DNA from: Meiothermus sp.
GTDB taxonomy: Bacteria; Deinococcota; Deinococci; Deinococcales; Thermaceae
Length of the DNA: 64,000 nucleotides
Direction: 5' to 3'
Assembly: GCF_026004075.1 (NCBI RefSeq)
Contig: NZ_BPIK01000001.1
Span: 1,962,041-2,026,040, forward strand
In this document: one piece after another, positions 15,742 through 61,950 of the stretch
Layout of the letters: each line of letters opens with the position of its first letter
Position numbering within the stretch: the first letter of the stretch is position 1
The notes under the pieces: generated by a model
What the model was told of the DNA's origin: nothing
Databases searched by the model: none
Seen by the model: only the letters and a program-made list of their open reading frames with translations
Made by a program: the position numbers and the translations under genes

Positions 15742-15846
<105 letters not shown>

Positions 15847-16861: not shown

Positions 16862-17122
16862 ATGGAAAACGCTCATAAGAACCTACTCGGATTCCGCGAC
16901 CAGAAGGCCCTTACAGGACTGGGCAACCACGCCACCCGCGCCCTTGCACGTCGGATACCCGGTGTGTACCGGGGGAAGGAAAAGCTGGTGCGGCGGGAAG
17001 ACCTCGAAGCCCTGCTTACCCGCATGACCCGCGAGGGGGTGGACTTGTGGACTTTCATCCGCAAGACGCCGGTCTGGAGGCCCCATAACGAAAACCCCGC
17101 CGGGCAGGGCGGGGAGAAGTAG
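16862..17122 (+). CDS. small HTH protein, excisionase-like
   Basis: The 86-residue protein has a pattern of small winged-helix excisionases: a helix-turn-helix stretch (KALTGLGNHATRALARRIPGV), a short wing, and a final helix VRREDLEALL. Such proteins bend DNA at att sites as directionality factors or act as repressors. It sits in an element with a tyrosine integrase, which fits. There is no strong ribosome site, and an inverted repeat lies directly upstream. The excisionase role is inference. Confidence 0.55.
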   Translation: MENAHKNLLGFRDQKALTGLGNHATRALARRIPGVYRGKEKLVRREDLEALLTRMTREGVDLWTFIRKTPVWRPHNENPAGQGGEK

Positions 17123-17131
17123 GGGGTCGCT

Positions 17132-18004
17132 GTGTTGCGCCACCAAAAGTATAGCACCCCCGAGCCGGATGTTCTGCTGGAGCGGCTCAGCAACGTTCGC
17201 CTTACCGGGCGCGATAGCTGGACTGCAACCTGCCCGGCTCACGGGACAGGCAGGAACCGAGCTCTCTCGGTCACCGTCGAGGACGAAAAGCTGCTGCTCC
17301 ACTGCTTCGCCGGCTGCCCGGCTGAGGCGGTTTTGGCGGCTGTGGGTTTGGCCTGGCCTGATCTGTATGGGCGGGCTGGCCTGAGACATCGGGCCAAGTA
17401 CACGAGAACCACTACAACCCCTGAGTTTAGCGGGCTAAACACCGAAAAATGGGGGCGTTGGTGGGATGCTGCCAAGCCTCACCACCCCTTGCTGGGCCGC
17501 TACCTGCAAGCCCGAGGATTGAGCATCACCCCACCCCCGACCCTGTGGCTGGCCCTCTGGGGTGAACAGCCGGTGATGTTGGCCCGGGTGGAAGGGCTGC
17601 AAGGTCTGGTGGGGATGCACCTAACTTTCCTGAAGCCGGACGGTTCGGGACGCCTTGAGAAAAAGCTAGCCGCCGGGAGTAAACCGCTGGGCGCGGCTAT
17701 TAGGCTCTACCCCTTCGAGGCCGGTAAACCCCTGGCCCTAGCTGAGGGTATCGAGACCGCCCTGGCTGTCCACCAGGCCGCCGGCTGGGCGGTGTGGGCC
17801 TGTGTGAGCGCCGGTGGGCTGGCGGCTGTGGAGCTACCGGCTGGGGCCCGCGAGGTGGTGATAGCGGCTGACCACGACAAGGCCGGGCTCGAGGCTGCCC
17901 ATGCTTTAGCCCGCCGCTTGCTCTCGGAAGGCCGCAAGGTGCGGCTAGCTACTCCACCCCGTGAGGGGCAGGACTGGCTCGACGTGGTGGGGGGTGTGGC
18001 ATGA
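17132..18004 (+). CDS. Toprim-domain primase-like protein with CHC2-type zinc finger
   Basis: The 290-residue protein has an N-terminal zinc-binding pattern (Cys34, His37, Cys58, Cys62) like phage and plasmid primases. A C-terminal Toprim domain has the Glu motif LAEGIETAL near 203-211 and the Asp motif AADHDKAG near 247. Together these suggest a primase that makes RNA primers for replication of the element. AGGGGG precedes the GTG start. The stop overlaps the next start (ATGA), so the two are translationally coupled. The arrangement is typical of replication modules of phages and integrative elements. Confidence 0.8.
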   Translation: MLRHQKYSTPEPDVLLERLSNVRLTGRDSWTATCPAHGTGRNRALSVTVEDEKLLLHCFAGCPAEAVLAAVGLAWPDLYGRAGLRHRAKYTRTTTTPEFSGLNTEKWGRWWDAAKPHHPLLGRYLQARGLSITPPPTLWLALWGEQPVMLARVEGLQGLVGMHLTFLKPDGSGRLEKKLAAGSKPLGAAIRLYPFEAGKPLALAEGIETALAVHQAAGWAVWACVSAGGLAAVELPAGAREVVIAADHDKAGLEAAHALARRLLSEGRKVRLATPPREGQDWLDVVGGVA

Positions 18005-19530
18005 GCGAGCCCATCAAGCTGCTGCACGAGGCCCCCGAGGTCGAACCCAAGCAAGCCTGGCCCGAGCCGCTGCCCCTTTACCGCGACCCCGAGGCCCCCG
18101 AGGCCTTCCCCCTGGAGGCCCTGGGTAGCCTTGCCCCCGTGGTGCGTGAGACTTTGCGCATTGTGCAGGCGCCGGATGCCCTGGTAGCCGCTTCCTACCT
18201 GGCCGCCACAAGCCTGGTCGTGCAGGGCCTGGCAAACGTCGTGGTGGATGGGCGGGTGTACCCCCTGAGCCTCTACTTCCTCACCGTTGCAGAGAGCGGG
18301 GAGCGCAAGACCGCCGTAGACACCATAGCCACCGCGCCCTTGCGTGAACGACAGAAAACCCTGCACCTGACCCAGCAGGATGAGGCCACCGCCTGGGAGG
18401 GCCGGTACACCCTCTGGGAGGCCGAGCGCAAAGCCATCATCACCAGGAAAAACACCAGCCGCGCGGAGCGTGAGACCGCCTTAGAACAGCTTGGCCCGCC
18501 ACCGTCTAAGCCCTGGAGCGGCATCATGCTTACCAGCGAGCCCACCTACGAGGGCCTGGTCAAACTGCTGGCCGACGGCTGGCCCTCCGTGGGGCTTGTC
18601 TCTAACGAGGGTGGCAGTTTCCTGGGGGGGCATGCCCTCAGTCAAGATCACCGGTTACGTACTCTTTCGGGGCTGAGTGAGCTCTGGGACGGTCAGGCGA
18701 TTGACCGCGTGCGAGCCGGGGATGGGGCAACACTGCTCTACAACCGCCGGGCCGCTTTGCACCTGATGGCCCAGCCGGTGGTAGCCCGCAGCCTGCTGGC
18801 CGACCCGCTGGCCCAAGGTCAGGGCTTCCTGGCCCGGATGCTCGTTACGGAGCCCTCGAGTACCGCCGGAGGGCGCTGGTACGTGTCGGAGTCGGTTCTG
18901 GACACCCCCGAGTACCAGGCCTATGCCGCCCGGCTTACGCGGGCTTTCGAAATCGTGGAGCAGGTAGTACTTAACGACCCGGAGGCCCGCAAGCAAGGGC
19001 TAAGCCTGAAAAACATCCCTCTGACCCCCGAGGCCAAGAAGTTGTGGACTAACTTTTACAACCACGTCGAACGCAATCTGAATGGCGAGCTCTTGCAGAT
19101 TCGCGCCTTCGCAAGCAAGTTAGCCGAGCACGCCCTGAGGCTGGCCGGGGTGCTGGCCCTGTTTGAAAACCCGGAGGCTACCAGCATCGGTAAAGATGCT
19201 ATGGAGCAGGGCGTTGCGTTAGCCGAGTTTTACGGAGCCGAGTCCTTCCGGCTGGTGGGCGGCTACCGCATCCCCCGACCCCTGGCCCTGGCAGCCGAGG
19301 TCTTGAACTGGCTGTTGGAGCACTGCAAAGCAAAGAACCGCCGGGTCTTCCACCTGGCCGAGGTCTACCGGCTGGGGCCGCCCGCCGTAAGGAGCGCACG
19401 AGCCGCCCGCGAGGTCATCCGCATCCTGGAAGAACACGGCTACCTGGCCCACCGTCCGAACATCGAGGTGGATGGCAAACCCCGCAAGGATGCCTGGGAG
19501 GTGAACCCCCATGCCCTTCCCCAAGTTTGA
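18001..19530 (+). CDS. DUF3987 (YfjI-like) replication protein
   Basis: The 509-residue protein matches DUF3987 proteins that accompany Toprim primases in mobile elements. A P-loop-like sequence AESGERKT is at residues 97-104. Downstream stretches include LTSEPTYEGLVKLLADGWPS, SNEGGSFLGG, LSGLSELWDGQ and the Arg-rich RRAALHLMAQP. They may act as helicase-like partners, but the biochemical role is not established. It overlaps the primase gene by four bases and the next gene by twenty. Confidence 0.75.
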   Translation: MSEPIKLLHEAPEVEPKQAWPEPLPLYRDPEAPEAFPLEALGSLAPVVRETLRIVQAPDALVAASYLAATSLVVQGLANVVVDGRVYPLSLYFLTVAESGERKTAVDTIATAPLRERQKTLHLTQQDEATAWEGRYTLWEAERKAIITRKNTSRAERETALEQLGPPPSKPWSGIMLTSEPTYEGLVKLLADGWPSVGLVSNEGGSFLGGHALSQDHRLRTLSGLSELWDGQAIDRVRAGDGATLLYNRRAALHLMAQPVVARSLLADPLAQGQGFLARMLVTEPSSTAGGRWYVSESVLDTPEYQAYAARLTRAFEIVEQVVLNDPEARKQGLSLKNIPLTPEAKKLWTNFYNHVERNLNGELLQIRAFASKLAEHALRLAGVLALFENPEATSIGKDAMEQGVALAEFYGAESFRLVGGYRIPRPLALAAEVLNWLLEHCKAKNRRVFHLAEVYRLGPPAVRSARAAREVIRILEEHGYLAHRPNIEVDGKPRKDAWEVNPHALPQV

Positions 19531-20236: not shown

Positions 20237-20755
20237 ACAAATACCCTCACCTACCTGCTTTGCGACAACCGGCTGCTCGAGGTTGCCCCTGGTGTTGGGT
20301 GAGACTGCTACAGGCTGGCTGAACGTGGTGTGTTGCTGGCTATTGGATAGCCTATCGTTGGCGGTTACTCTGCACAAAGTGAGCGGTCTGAAAATGCGTA
20401 CTTATCAACAAAAGTACGCATCTCCCCTTCCGTCCGACAACAACCGGCTGACACCAGGGACTGCACAATAGATTGCACAGTAGGTTGAACTCCAGGGTAG
20501 GGGGCGCCCCCCCAAACCACACACTAGTAATCAATAGCACCCTTAATCCCGCCAAGGGTTTTCTATGACCATTGTTGCACAGGTTAGGGGCATGGGGGCT
20601 CTGGTAAGCGCATGAGATTTCCCGTTTAGGCAAGGCTCCTTTAGGAGGTCTTTCGCTCAAATGAGTCTCTCAACGTCCATTCGAGAAAATGTGGCAGTTC
20701 ACGAGCGGAGCACCATCCTAAGCCTGGGGCTAGTTTCTGTAACGGTCAGCCCCCA
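20237..20755. other. 519-base non-coding region, candidate replication origin
   Basis: No frame here has a start, codon use or neighbours that support a gene. It holds a 10-bp inverted repeat around TTATCAACA (20394-20421), a GGGGGC/GCCCCC palindrome at 20500-20511, and several TTGCACA-like words (20463, 20473, 20575). It lies between the rightward replication operon and the leftward membrane protein gene. Confidence 0.5.
20394..20421. promoter_or_regulatory. inverted repeat enclosing a DnaA-box-like sequence
   Basis: ATGCGTACTT and AAGTACGCAT form a perfect 10-bp inverted repeat. The loop and adjoining bases read TTATCAACA (20402-20410), one base from the bacterial DnaA box TTATCCACA. It is the only such structure I see in the element. 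Confidence 0.5.
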
Positions 20756-21352
20756 TCAAGCTGGGCGGGTGAACCGCAAGGTAATACCAAATGCGGTTAG
20801 TAGCAAGCCGCAAATTACCAGCACCCCTACGATTCGCAAGGCTGCTGCGGGGTAGTCTGGGGAGCAAACCCTCTGCAACCTAGACTTCCAAACACGGTTC
20901 TGCTTGTCGAGCTCAGTTTTTACGAGACGGTGTTGTCCTCGAATCATCTCATAGGCTTGGTCAATCTTAGCCTCCTTCTCGTTCAAAGCTTCCCACCAGA
21001 ACACTTCAGAGTTCGCGCTAGTTCCAATAGGTTCAAGAGCTTCCGCAAGTTGCTGGACGACTTGTCTCACTTCTGGGCGCAACGACTCCAAAAACTTCGA
21101 TGATAAGCGGTACCTAGGTATAGCAGGGAGGTCGTCCATGCCCAGGCCGCGTAGATGGCCCAACCCAATTTCGTCGGCCACTACTGCCCAGGTCGGCTCT
21201 CGCCTCAGTTCCGCACTGCAGGCCACGCCGGCCGCTGTAAAGGGGCGTGTATCGAGAGGGGGGATTATCACTATATACCCCACCATTCCAGCCGCGGTAA
21301 GCAAGCAGATGACCTGAAGCAGCTTTACTGCCAGAATCCAATAAGCTGTCAC
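20756..21352 (-). CDS. element membrane protein, two TM segments, unknown function
   Basis: AAGGAGG lies about nine bases before the GTG start. The 198-residue protein has an N-terminal hydrophobic segment (about 7-31), a hydrophilic and partly helical middle of about 140 residues, and a second membrane segment near the C-terminus (about 171-192). Both ends are probably anchored, with the middle on one side. It is transcribed against all its neighbours in the element. I do not recognise the family; superinfection exclusion or a defence role is possible but not shown. Confidence 0.65.
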   Translation of the reverse strand: MTAYWILAVKLLQVICLLTAAGMVGYIVIIPPLDTRPFTAAGVACSAELRREPTWAVVADEIGLGHLRGLGMDDLPAIPRYRLSSKFLESLRPEVRQVVQQLAEALEPIGTSANSEVFWWEALNEKEAKIDQAYEMIRGQHRLVKTELDKQNRVWKSRLQRVCSPDYPAAALRIVGVLVICGLLLTAFGITLRFTRPA

Positions 21353-21474
21353 ACGCCTACCGCCTCCTTTTTCTCATACTACCAGAAGGATTGGTGCTTT
21401 TTGCCTCGCCCGCCACAAGCATGTTCAGCAGGCTAAAGCTTAATAAAGCGTAAATAATCACAATAGATTTCGAT

Positions 21475-21503
21475 ATTATACAACGTGAATCACGTTGTAT
21501 AAT
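21475..21503. promoter_or_regulatory. 29-bp perfect palindrome over divergent -10 boxes
   Basis: ATTATACAACGTG, AAT and CACGTTGTATAAT form a perfect 13-3-13 palindrome. Each end is a consensus TATAAT -10 box reading outward. The right one ends six bases before the ATG at 21510. The left one could serve the membrane protein gene that starts at 21352. One bound repressor could close both promoters. Confidence 0.75.
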
Positions 21504-21509
21504 AGACAC

Positions 21510-21713
21510 ATGAAGGGAAAAAACCTAAGGAAAGACCGGCTACCTAAGCCTGTAAGGTTGGAACTTTTGGGGGTGCAGGAACTTCAAGCGGGTGAGGTGA
21601 CGCGCACGGTGCGGGTGCGCGGTCAAAAAGCCATCATTGAGGAGTTTGCCAGACTTACACCCATTGAGCGGGGTCAGGTAATAGAGCGGGGAATGAAGGC
21701 CACTGGGGTTTAG
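21510..21713 (+). CDS. small protein, possible ribbon-helix-helix regulator
   Basis: The ATG at 21510 begins MKGKNLRKDRLPKPVRLEL; an in-frame ATG 15 bases upstream lies inside the palindromic operator. The TATAAT just before suggests a leaderless transcript. The 67-residue protein is basic at the N-terminus, then has a strand-like TRTVRVRG followed by two helices (QKAIIEEFARL, PIERGQVIERGMKA). This order resembles ribbon-helix-helix repressors. It may bind the palindrome before it. The fold is inferred from sequence pattern only. Confidence 0.55.
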   Translation: MKGKNLRKDRLPKPVRLELLGVQELQAGEVTRTVRVRGQKAIIEEFARLTPIERGQVIERGMKATGV

Positions 21714-22295
21714 CGGGCTAAACAAGATTGGTGAGGTGCTATCATGCCGAAAAAATCCAGCAAGCGGGCAAATGGTCACGGCAGCAAGCCGGTACAACGG
21801 GGGAATTCCTACACGATGCAGGTTACGCTAGGCCGACGCAGGGACGGTAAACTTGACCGCCGCAGGGTCACGGCCTCCACCCGAGAGGAGGTTGAGCAGA
21901 AGGCCCGCGAGCTTCAGGTGCTCTACACCAAGGGCATGATAGCTGAGCCCGACTCCGTGACCTTCAAGGAGCGGGGTGAGCTTTGGCTCAGGCGGAAGGC
22001 CCGCACGGCCCGGCCCAAGACCCTGGAGGGCTATGGCTGGCTGCTAAGGCGGTACGTGTATGCCCACCTGGGGGAGCGTAAGGTACAGGCTTTGAGGCCT
22101 CCGCACATCCGGGGGTTCTACGAGTCCCTGCTGGAGTCGGGGATGTCGTCGGAGACCTTTCGGCAGGTGCGTTATCTGGTACGGGCCATTTTGGAGGATG
22201 CCCTGGCGGACGAGGTTGTAGCCCGCAACGTGGCCCACGGGGTGCGGGTGGAGTTACCCAAGACCCAGCGTACCGGCCAGTCCTGGAGCCCCTTA

Positions 22296-23160
22296 GAATC
22301 TACAAACCACCTTACCCAAATCAGGCACTGCAGTTATGTTTAGAGCATGAACCGCCGTGCTTACCCATCGGACGTCCGTGATGAGGAATGGGCTCTGGTG
22401 CTGCCCTATTTGACCCTCGCCCCGCTGGAAGCACCCCAGCGCAAGTACGACCTGCGCGAAGTGTTCAACGCCCTGCGCTGGATGGTTCGAACCGGTGCTC
22501 AGTGGGACTACCTGCCCCACGACTTCCCACCCCCCCATATCGTTCAGGCGCAAGCCTACCGCTGGATGAACCGGGGGGTCTTCGAAGACCTGGTACACGA
22601 CCTGCGCATGACCCTGCGAATGCTCCAGGGCAAAGCCGCCCATCCCAGCGCTGCCATCTACGATGCTCGCACCCTACAGTCCACCCCGCAAAGTGGGGAG
22701 CGGGCCGGATACGATGGGTACAAACGACGCAAGGGAAGCAAAGTTCACCTGGCGGTAGATACCCTGGGGCATCTGCTGGCCCTGGTAGTAACGGCGGCCA
22801 GTGAACAGGAACGGGCCCAGGTGGGAGCCCTCAGTCAACAGGTGCAGGAAGTGACGGGGGAGCAGGTGGAAGTGGCCTTTGTGGATCAGGGTTACACTGG
22901 GGAGGAAGCGGCACAAGCGGCAGAGGCGGAAGGCATCGCCCTGTGTGTGGTCAAGGTGGAAGGGGCCAAACGAGGATTCGTGCTGCTGCCGAAGCGTTGG
23001 GTGGTGGAACGTTCGTTTGCCTGGACATCCCGGTTTCGCAGGCTGGCGCGAGACTATGAGCGGCTGGCTGAGACCTTGCGAGGTTGGCACTGGTTGGCTT
23101 TTTCGATTCTGATGACAGCGAAAACTGTGGAGCTTTTACGAACAGCTAGTTAGCAGGCTC
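22296..23160 (+). mobile_element. IS5-family element inside the integrase gene
   Basis: The 865-bp element has imperfect ends (GAATCTACAAACCA and GAGCCTGCTAACTA, nine of fourteen matching) and is flanked by TA on both sides, at 22294-22295 and 23161-23162. A two-base TA duplication fits IS5 relatives. It differs from the element at 1431-2360 in ends and transposase and has no frameshift. It lacks CTCGAG. Confidence 0.85.
22347..23153 (+). CDS. IS5-family transposase (single frame)
   Basis: The 268-residue transposase has an N-terminal DUF4096-type domain ([18 protein letters not shown]) and a DDE catalytic set: Asp106 in IYDARTLQS, Asp180 in FVDQGYTG, and Glu221 in VVERSFAW. The frame is intact from the ATG at 22347 to a TAG seven bases before the right end. 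It is read in the same direction as the integrase it disrupts. Confidence 0.88.
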
Positions 23161-23788
23161 TAGAGGTTAGGGCTTTTTTACAGGCTGCCACAAACGAAAG
23201 GCTGTACCCTCTGTTTTACTTGATGCTCACCCTGGGCCTCAGGCGGGGCGAGGTGCTGGGGCTACGCTGGGTGGACGTGAACCTCGAGGGGTCTACTTTG
23301 CGGGTATCGCAAACGCTTACCCTGGTGGGTGGAAAGCCCCACTTCGGGCAACCCAAGACTGAAAGCTCTCGCCGGGTGCTTGACCTCCCCCCCGACGTGC
23401 GGGAGGTGTTGTCCGACTGGAGAGCACAACAGCGGGGTGAGCGGGAGATAGCTGGGGCAGACTGGGAAGACAGCGGCCTGGTGTTCACCACCGCCCTGGG
23501 CGGCTACCTCCACCCCGACAACCTAAAGCGGGTGCTCCACCGGGTGGCAAAGCGGGCAGGGGTCAAACCCGTGCGGATTCACGACCTGCGTCATACCTAT
23601 GCTTCCCTGGCTATCAGCAATGGGGTTCCGGCGGAGGTGGCCTCAGAGAAGCTGGGCCATACCCAGGTGGCCTTTACGCTAAAACAGTACAGGCACGTTC
23701 TGGAACACGAGCACAAGGGGTATGCCCTTCCCCTTACCGACCTGCTCAGGGAGCGAAATATCCCCAAGGCTTAGGGGCGGTTGCACCA

Positions 23789-23925
<137 letters not shown>

Positions 23926-61915: not shown

Positions 61916-61950
61916 GCAAACCCCCGGCAGGGCCGGGGGTTTGCTTTTTT
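61916..61950 (+). terminator. rho-independent terminator after the ATPase gene
   Basis: GCAAACCCCCGGC, an AGG loop and GCCGGGGGTTTGC form a strong hairpin followed by six T, about 12 bases past the stop. Confidence 0.92.

Follow-up and report, generated by a model that had tools for sequence, protein, structure and literature searches.

What is the role of a long, perfect inverted repeat that ends in a consensus -10 box on each strand and stands directly ahead of an integrase operon? Such a repeat lies at positions 21474 to 21504 of the window, by which we mean the whole 64,000-nucleotide stretch of Meiothermus DNA that was analysed. The original prediction described a perfect palindrome of 29 bp (13-3-13). 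The palindrome is indeed perfect, but it measures 31 bp (15-1-15), with 15-bp arms around a single unpaired centre, A21489. Both of its ends are TATAAT, facing outward, and it extends one base past each box. The right -10 box is at 21498 to 21503 on the forward strand, and its mirror copy, the left -10 box, is at 21480 to 21475 on the reverse strand. The right box is followed by AGACAC and then by the ATG, at 21510, of a gene for a 67-aa protein (21510 to 21713, forward strand). The predicted outward boxes and the 6-nt distance to the ATG can thus be read directly from the window sequence.

We estimated how often such a repeat arises by chance. Simulated 64-kb windows that kept the dinucleotide make-up contained a perfect arm of 15 bp or longer, with a spacer of up to 8, in 11 of 9,300 cases; second-order simulations gave none in 60, and an earlier small run of first-order simulations gave 1 in 20. 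With a chance of about 0.1% per window, the 31-bp repeat alone is not astonishing across a 3.25-Mb genome. Its notable point is its fit to two -10 boxes. The 464 kb of the genome that were sampled contained eight perfect repeats with arms of at least 12, and this palindrome was the longest. Two AT-rich perfect palindromes without T-runs were noted in the same genome (12-1-12 at L070:15764-15788 and 13-0-13 at L064:16740-16765), and a GC-rich 13-3-13 perfect repeat in the window (61916 to 61944), followed by a T-run, is probably a terminator.

The site occurs only once in the genome at up to 3 mismatches. No match to the palindrome core with fewer than 3 mismatches was found in 110 related genomes, where 3-mismatch matches were about as frequent as in a reversed control. 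The exact core appeared elsewhere in one Halomonas contig of genome_contigs and in none of viral_contigs, and the region from 21360 to 21740 had no match in plasmids.

The palindrome sits in a roughly 8-kb element, bounded by a tRNA-Ala gene, the integration target (23849 to 23924, reverse strand), and by a far-side repeat of 74 bp. The two copies of this att repeat are at 23820 to 23893 on the tRNA side and at 15773 to 15846 on the far side. With the adjoining tRNA-Ala, the 74-bp repeats at both ends, and a Phage_integrase match (1.6e-18) in the C-terminal catalytic piece of a tyrosine integrase (23220 to 23774, forward strand), it is a tRNA-integrated tyrosine-integrase element. The N-terminal integrase piece (21744 to 22343, forward strand; Phage_int_M, 3.5e-8; Phage_int_SAM_3, 1.3e-7) ends in a tail that reads into an insertion sequence, whose IS4/5-type transposase gene splits the integrase (22347 to 23153, forward strand; DDE_Tnp_1, 2e-21; DUF4096, 2.6e-20). 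Therefore, the element is now probably immobile. It also encodes, all on the forward strand, a Toprim primase (17132 to 18004), a DUF3987 helicase-like protein (18001 to 19530), and an 86-aa candidate regulator (16862 to 17122), which has a winged-HTH-like helix order in a low-confidence model (pLDDT 55). The replication genes are 2 to 4 kb from the palindrome and share the orientation of the integrase gene. Gene content and promoter type suggest a Meiothermus-like host in Thermaceae. The element with the most similar small protein by identity, L033, is in the same genome (primase, 70%; DUF3987 protein, 69%; small protein, about 56 to 57%).

The 67-aa protein belongs to an undescribed family tied to tyrosine integrases. 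Among 111 genomes from the phylum, 26 contain homologs, in 45 copies, six of them in the window's genome; most stand directly ahead of a tyrosine integrase. Among 35 distinct downstream ORFs of at least 150 aa, a set that drops 10 copies with duplicate, truncated or short ORFs, 30 matched Phage_integrase and 30 matched the integrase central domain. A tRNA lies 79 to 89 bp past the integrase end in 10 of the 12 homolog loci scanned, and 75 bp past it in the window. No relatives of the 67-aa protein were found in phages, plasmids, viral_contigs or genome_contigs.

The homologs allowed us to compare the two halves of the palindrome separately. Leaderless promoters in Deinococcus-Thermus that depend on an adjacent -10 box have been described (PMC12340547); in these, a TANNNT stands shortly ahead of the start codon, a ribosome-binding sequence is absent, and a -35 box is unneeded. 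The TATAAT-N6-ATG arrangement ahead of the 67-aa gene has this form. A TAnnnT was present 5 to 8 nt before the start codon in 35 of the 45 homolog copies, and exactly 6 nt before it in 33; among the distinct TAnnnT promoters of homologs, the spacing was 6 in 25 of 27. The homolog with the highest identity, in the same genome, has TTCACGTGG-TAAGAT where the window has ATCACGTTG-TATAAT. A consensus scan around the palindrome gave no -35/-10 pair, as expected where promoters lean on the -10 box. On this evidence, the right half very probably serves as an inherited promoter of the leaderless type. A CGTG half-site before the -10 box was found in 10 of 27 family promoters and in 1 of 7 background promoters, an enrichment that is suggestive only; the first background set was small, at 16 promoters. 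For one homolog, L009, the start was placed at a GTG ahead of the probable ATG, so that its -10 box was scored as missing in the spacing, palindrome and CGTG counts.

The left half gave a different picture. Among 38 distinct homolog promoters, only the window copy had an extended inverted repeat spanning the -10 box (score 15, versus 6 or less for the other 37); the count leaves out duplicate promoters and L037, which has too little upstream DNA. The L006 promoter had a weak repeat over its -10 box (score 6; nominal p 0.02), and no further promoter reached p 0.05. The left arm has no counterpart in the promoter of the highest-identity homolog, where the right-half sequence is still recognisable. 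The left half thus appears to be private to the window element and a derived mirror copy of the right. Its box reads TATAAT-ATCGAA-ATC, with no start codon at the leaderless spacing. The leftward gene (20756 to 21352, reverse strand) encodes a 198-aa protein with two hydrophobic segments and has an AGGAGG before its GTG. Because its start at 21352 is about 116 nt past the predicted left transcript start and lies behind this AGGAGG, the left transcript would carry a leader. Two divergent leaderless promoters had been proposed; the family spacing upholds the right one, and the left one fails for want of a start codon at that distance. The 198-aa gene of the window element is the sole copy across 111 genomes; neither Pfam nor PADLOC gave a match to its product, and the PHROGs matches were at chance level. 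The leftward promoter may be silent.

Several functions could be set aside directly. The palindrome is not an intrinsic terminator, as a T-run is absent after either arm and the scan listed no terminator there. It is not a dif or att site, as its centre is odd, it is fully symmetric, and its arms are unlike the host dif arms. A family-wide operator was rejected because the repeat is missing from 37 of the 38 distinct homolog promoters, and an operator of a host regulon was rejected as likely because the genome holds no other site within 3 mismatches. Unique both among homolog promoters and in the genome, the palindrome is not a conserved operator of the 67-aa family and is unlikely to be a host regulon site.

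Ribbon-helix-helix (RHH) autorepressors of the CopG and Arc type are small proteins, encoded by the first gene of an operon, that bind a palindrome over their own promoter. The original prediction saw an RHH-like pattern in the 67-aa protein and took the palindrome as its autoregulated operator, closing its own and the divergent promoter. The 67-aa gene is indeed the first behind the promoter, and only this element has the symmetric site. A single-sequence model of the protein (pLDDT 71.6) has strands at 16 to 25 and 29 to 37 and helices at 40 to 47 and 51 to 65, and this strand-helix-helix order is the only feature that agrees with the RHH fold. However, the protein had no match in Pfam, NCBIfam or PHROGs, and RHH profiles of Pfam and NCBIfam matched neither it nor the 22 family members scanned. 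An RHH_1 search of 50 genomes had no locus of the 67-aa family among the matches listed. Alignment of the family with an RHH_1 profile by hhalign gave a probability of 1.2%, against at most 0.8% for eight column shuffles; the profile was built from 29 of 30 domains from these genomes, one being dropped for a stop codon. Foldseek/VIA searches with the single-sequence model had no RHH chain among the matches listed and gave no usable match. These searches therefore lend no support to the RHH class, to which the protein may still belong. Unlike the operators of CopG and Arc, moreover, the palindrome is not conserved with the protein family, whose members are kept at loci with promoters that lack the repeat. 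We regard an RHH repressor acting at its own palindrome as improbable, and the comparison of promoters likewise gives the proposed autoregulation no support.

Nor does the locus resemble the lysogeny-type switch that was proposed for the element. Such a switch needs two opposed regulators, and the leftward gene, with its two hydrophobic segments, has no regulator match. There is a single palindrome, the replication genes face the same way as the integrase, and the integrase is broken by the insertion sequence.

The palindrome could instead be an operator for another protein that controls both genes, such as the 86-aa winged-HTH-like protein of the element, the integrase, or a host regulator. 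Operators that bind dimers typically show such perfect symmetry around an odd centre, and the low-confidence model of the 86-aa protein has a helix-helix-hairpin-helix order that would suit such a role. Against this, a search of the element for the 13-bp half-site, with up to 3 mismatches allowed, gave no additional copy, and the single whole site in the genome argues against a host regulon. We would give this alternative long odds. The autoregulated intS promoter of KplE1 is a partial parallel: as far as PMC2951348 covers it, it too serves the integrase of a tRNA-integrated element from a promoter that may carry protein sites. However, att overlaps the promoter in KplE1, whereas in the window element the att repeat is at the end of the integrase gene that faces away from the promoter.

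A further possibility is that the repeat is a by-product of mutation, in which template switching during replication mirrored the right half and only the right promoter functions. The repeat is perfect and specific to this lineage, with an ancestral right arm and a left arm that relatives lack. Template-switching events need a hairpin geometry, and a strand of the palindrome folds into a strong hairpin (-11.6 kcal/mol; z, -8.3). However, the left arm finishes at a -10 box, before a gene that needs a promoter. We consider such a by-product unlikely.

The reading that we prefer, with a probability of about 0.5, is that the palindrome is a symmetric two-way promoter whose halves are mutually exclusive, and that it is perhaps also the operator of a dimeric repressor. 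In this model, the small-protein/integrase operon would have its inherited leaderless promoter in the right half, and the left half would be a derived mirror copy that gives the inserted leftward membrane-protein gene a -10 box. The right half fits the family promoter, the mirror half is unique among the 38 distinct promoters, the leftward gene has a good ribosome-binding sequence behind the left box, and the uniqueness of the site in the genome (up to 3 mismatches) speaks against a host regulon. On the other side, template switching can also yield a perfect repeat without selection. On balance, the palindrome is real and well formed, and it probably functions as a two-way promoter. Transcripts would start about 7 nt past each box, near 21510 on the forward strand and 21468 on the reverse strand, about 42 bp apart. 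Because the palindrome ends one base past the boxes, it would lie outside both transcripts and would work as DNA and not as RNA. At this separation, one polymerase would cover the -10 box of the other, so the two directions should exclude each other. Two -10 boxes on one palindrome imply a shared control point, and the exact symmetry would suit a dimeric repressor of the element that closes both promoters together; the 67-aa protein is an unsupported candidate, and the 86-aa protein, with its low-confidence model, is another. The palindrome, its boxes and their spacing, the gene layout, and the conservation in the family of the right half alone are observed; transcription in both directions, mutual exclusion and a repressor are steps that we infer.

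The leaderless promoters of PMC12340547 are one-way, whereas the palindrome doubles the box in mirror image and its second copy is not leaderless. In the bidirectional promoters of Warman, Grainger and co-workers (PMC12825309), DNA symmetry likewise loads RNA polymerase in two exclusive orientations. However, those promoters, as the paper's account of them goes, share one -10 box, with starts flanking or within it and 10 to 23 bp apart in the five tested, whereas the palindrome is perfectly symmetric and has a separate box for each direction, with about 42 bp between the predicted starts. It is therefore not a shared-box promoter. The same account gives the five tested E. coli promoters a basal activity too low for polymerases to compete, which is evidence against strong exclusion at the palindrome.

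The comparison of homolog promoters also uncovered a second kind of repeat. In many of these promoters, an inverted repeat whose arms flank a 6-bp centre lies about 30 to 75 nt upstream of the ATG. Arms pairing at 9 or more of 11 positions were found in 12 of 29 distinct integrase-linked promoters, 10 of them at a shuffle p of at most 0.01; in one of the 12, L031, the repeat is another one and lies farther upstream. When the genome was scanned for the commonest form, five places matched, against none in a reversed control. Three of the five are by 67-aa homologs, one is at 20395 to 20420 in the window (TGCGTACTTA-TCAACA-AAAGTACGCA), 1.05 kb left of the palindrome, and one is directly before a host xer-type gene. 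The window site and its relatives are of dif type, with 11-bp arms, a 6-bp centre, and the same arms as at the host xer-type gene. In the family's xer-like loci, 20 of 26 have a dif-type repeat directly upstream, abutting the gene's own -10 box, and a third form has the same layout in a genus with small genomes. By their sequence and position, these repeats are therefore host dif-type sites. The three forms broadly track host genera and occur at host xer-type genes and at many small-protein/integrase operons. Sites of the 11-6-11 type were recorded at 20395 to 20420 in the window, at L079:1501-1526, and at L116-L141. Upstream of position 1483 in L020, there are traces of two forms in tandem before the integrase operon. 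In L028 (L081), an element in the window's genome, the form is that of the xer genes of other genera and unlike the host dif at L079, which hints at transfer.

In single-Xer modules such as xerS-difSL, a host xer-type gene stands directly behind a dif-type site, as far as PMC5357621 sets them out, and the integrase operons of the elements repeat this layout. However, difSL is described there as 31 bp with an 11-bp centre, whereas the sites here are 11-6-11, and the dif-type site of the window element is 1 kb from the promoter. Among the papers listed in our literature searches, no title concerned dif sites in front of integrase genes in elements of this kind, a negative that holds for those listings alone.

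In the window element, the leftward gene stands between the intact dif-type site and the integrase promoter. At the position that the site has in relatives, there is a candidate degenerate dif-type site (21445 to 21474; left half, 10/12; right half, 4/12). The shuffle odds of its dif half were 0.0014 at that position and 0.014 anywhere in 130 nt; the right half is poor. The intervening stretch of about 1 kb (20421 to 21444), which holds the 198-aa gene between the intact and the degenerate site, resembles an Xer (pdif-like) cassette.

A tentative account, in which we have rather low confidence, would join these observations. Mobile elements in this bacterial family would retain a copy of the host dif in the promoter of the integrase operon, just as the host has dif ahead of xer. 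The host Xer recombinase might then detect an element, or resolve it, and thereby control its integrase. Insertion of a gene between two dif-type sites of the window element, in the manner of an Xer cassette, would have parted dif from the promoter. The perfect mirror promoter would then have arisen and linked the inserted gene to the integrase operon such that each excludes the other.

If both halves fire, the palindrome would be about the most symmetric natural two-way promoter that one could ask for. With identical -10 boxes and surroundings on both strands, any difference in output would stem only from the downstream sequence, and the site would offer a clean test of RNA polymerase competition at divergent promoters. 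The dif-type sites, a by-product of this analysis, may matter more than the palindrome. That many elements carry host-type dif sites at their integrase promoters points to a possible connection between the resolution of chromosome dimers and the mobility of elements, and this connection is directly testable in Thermus.
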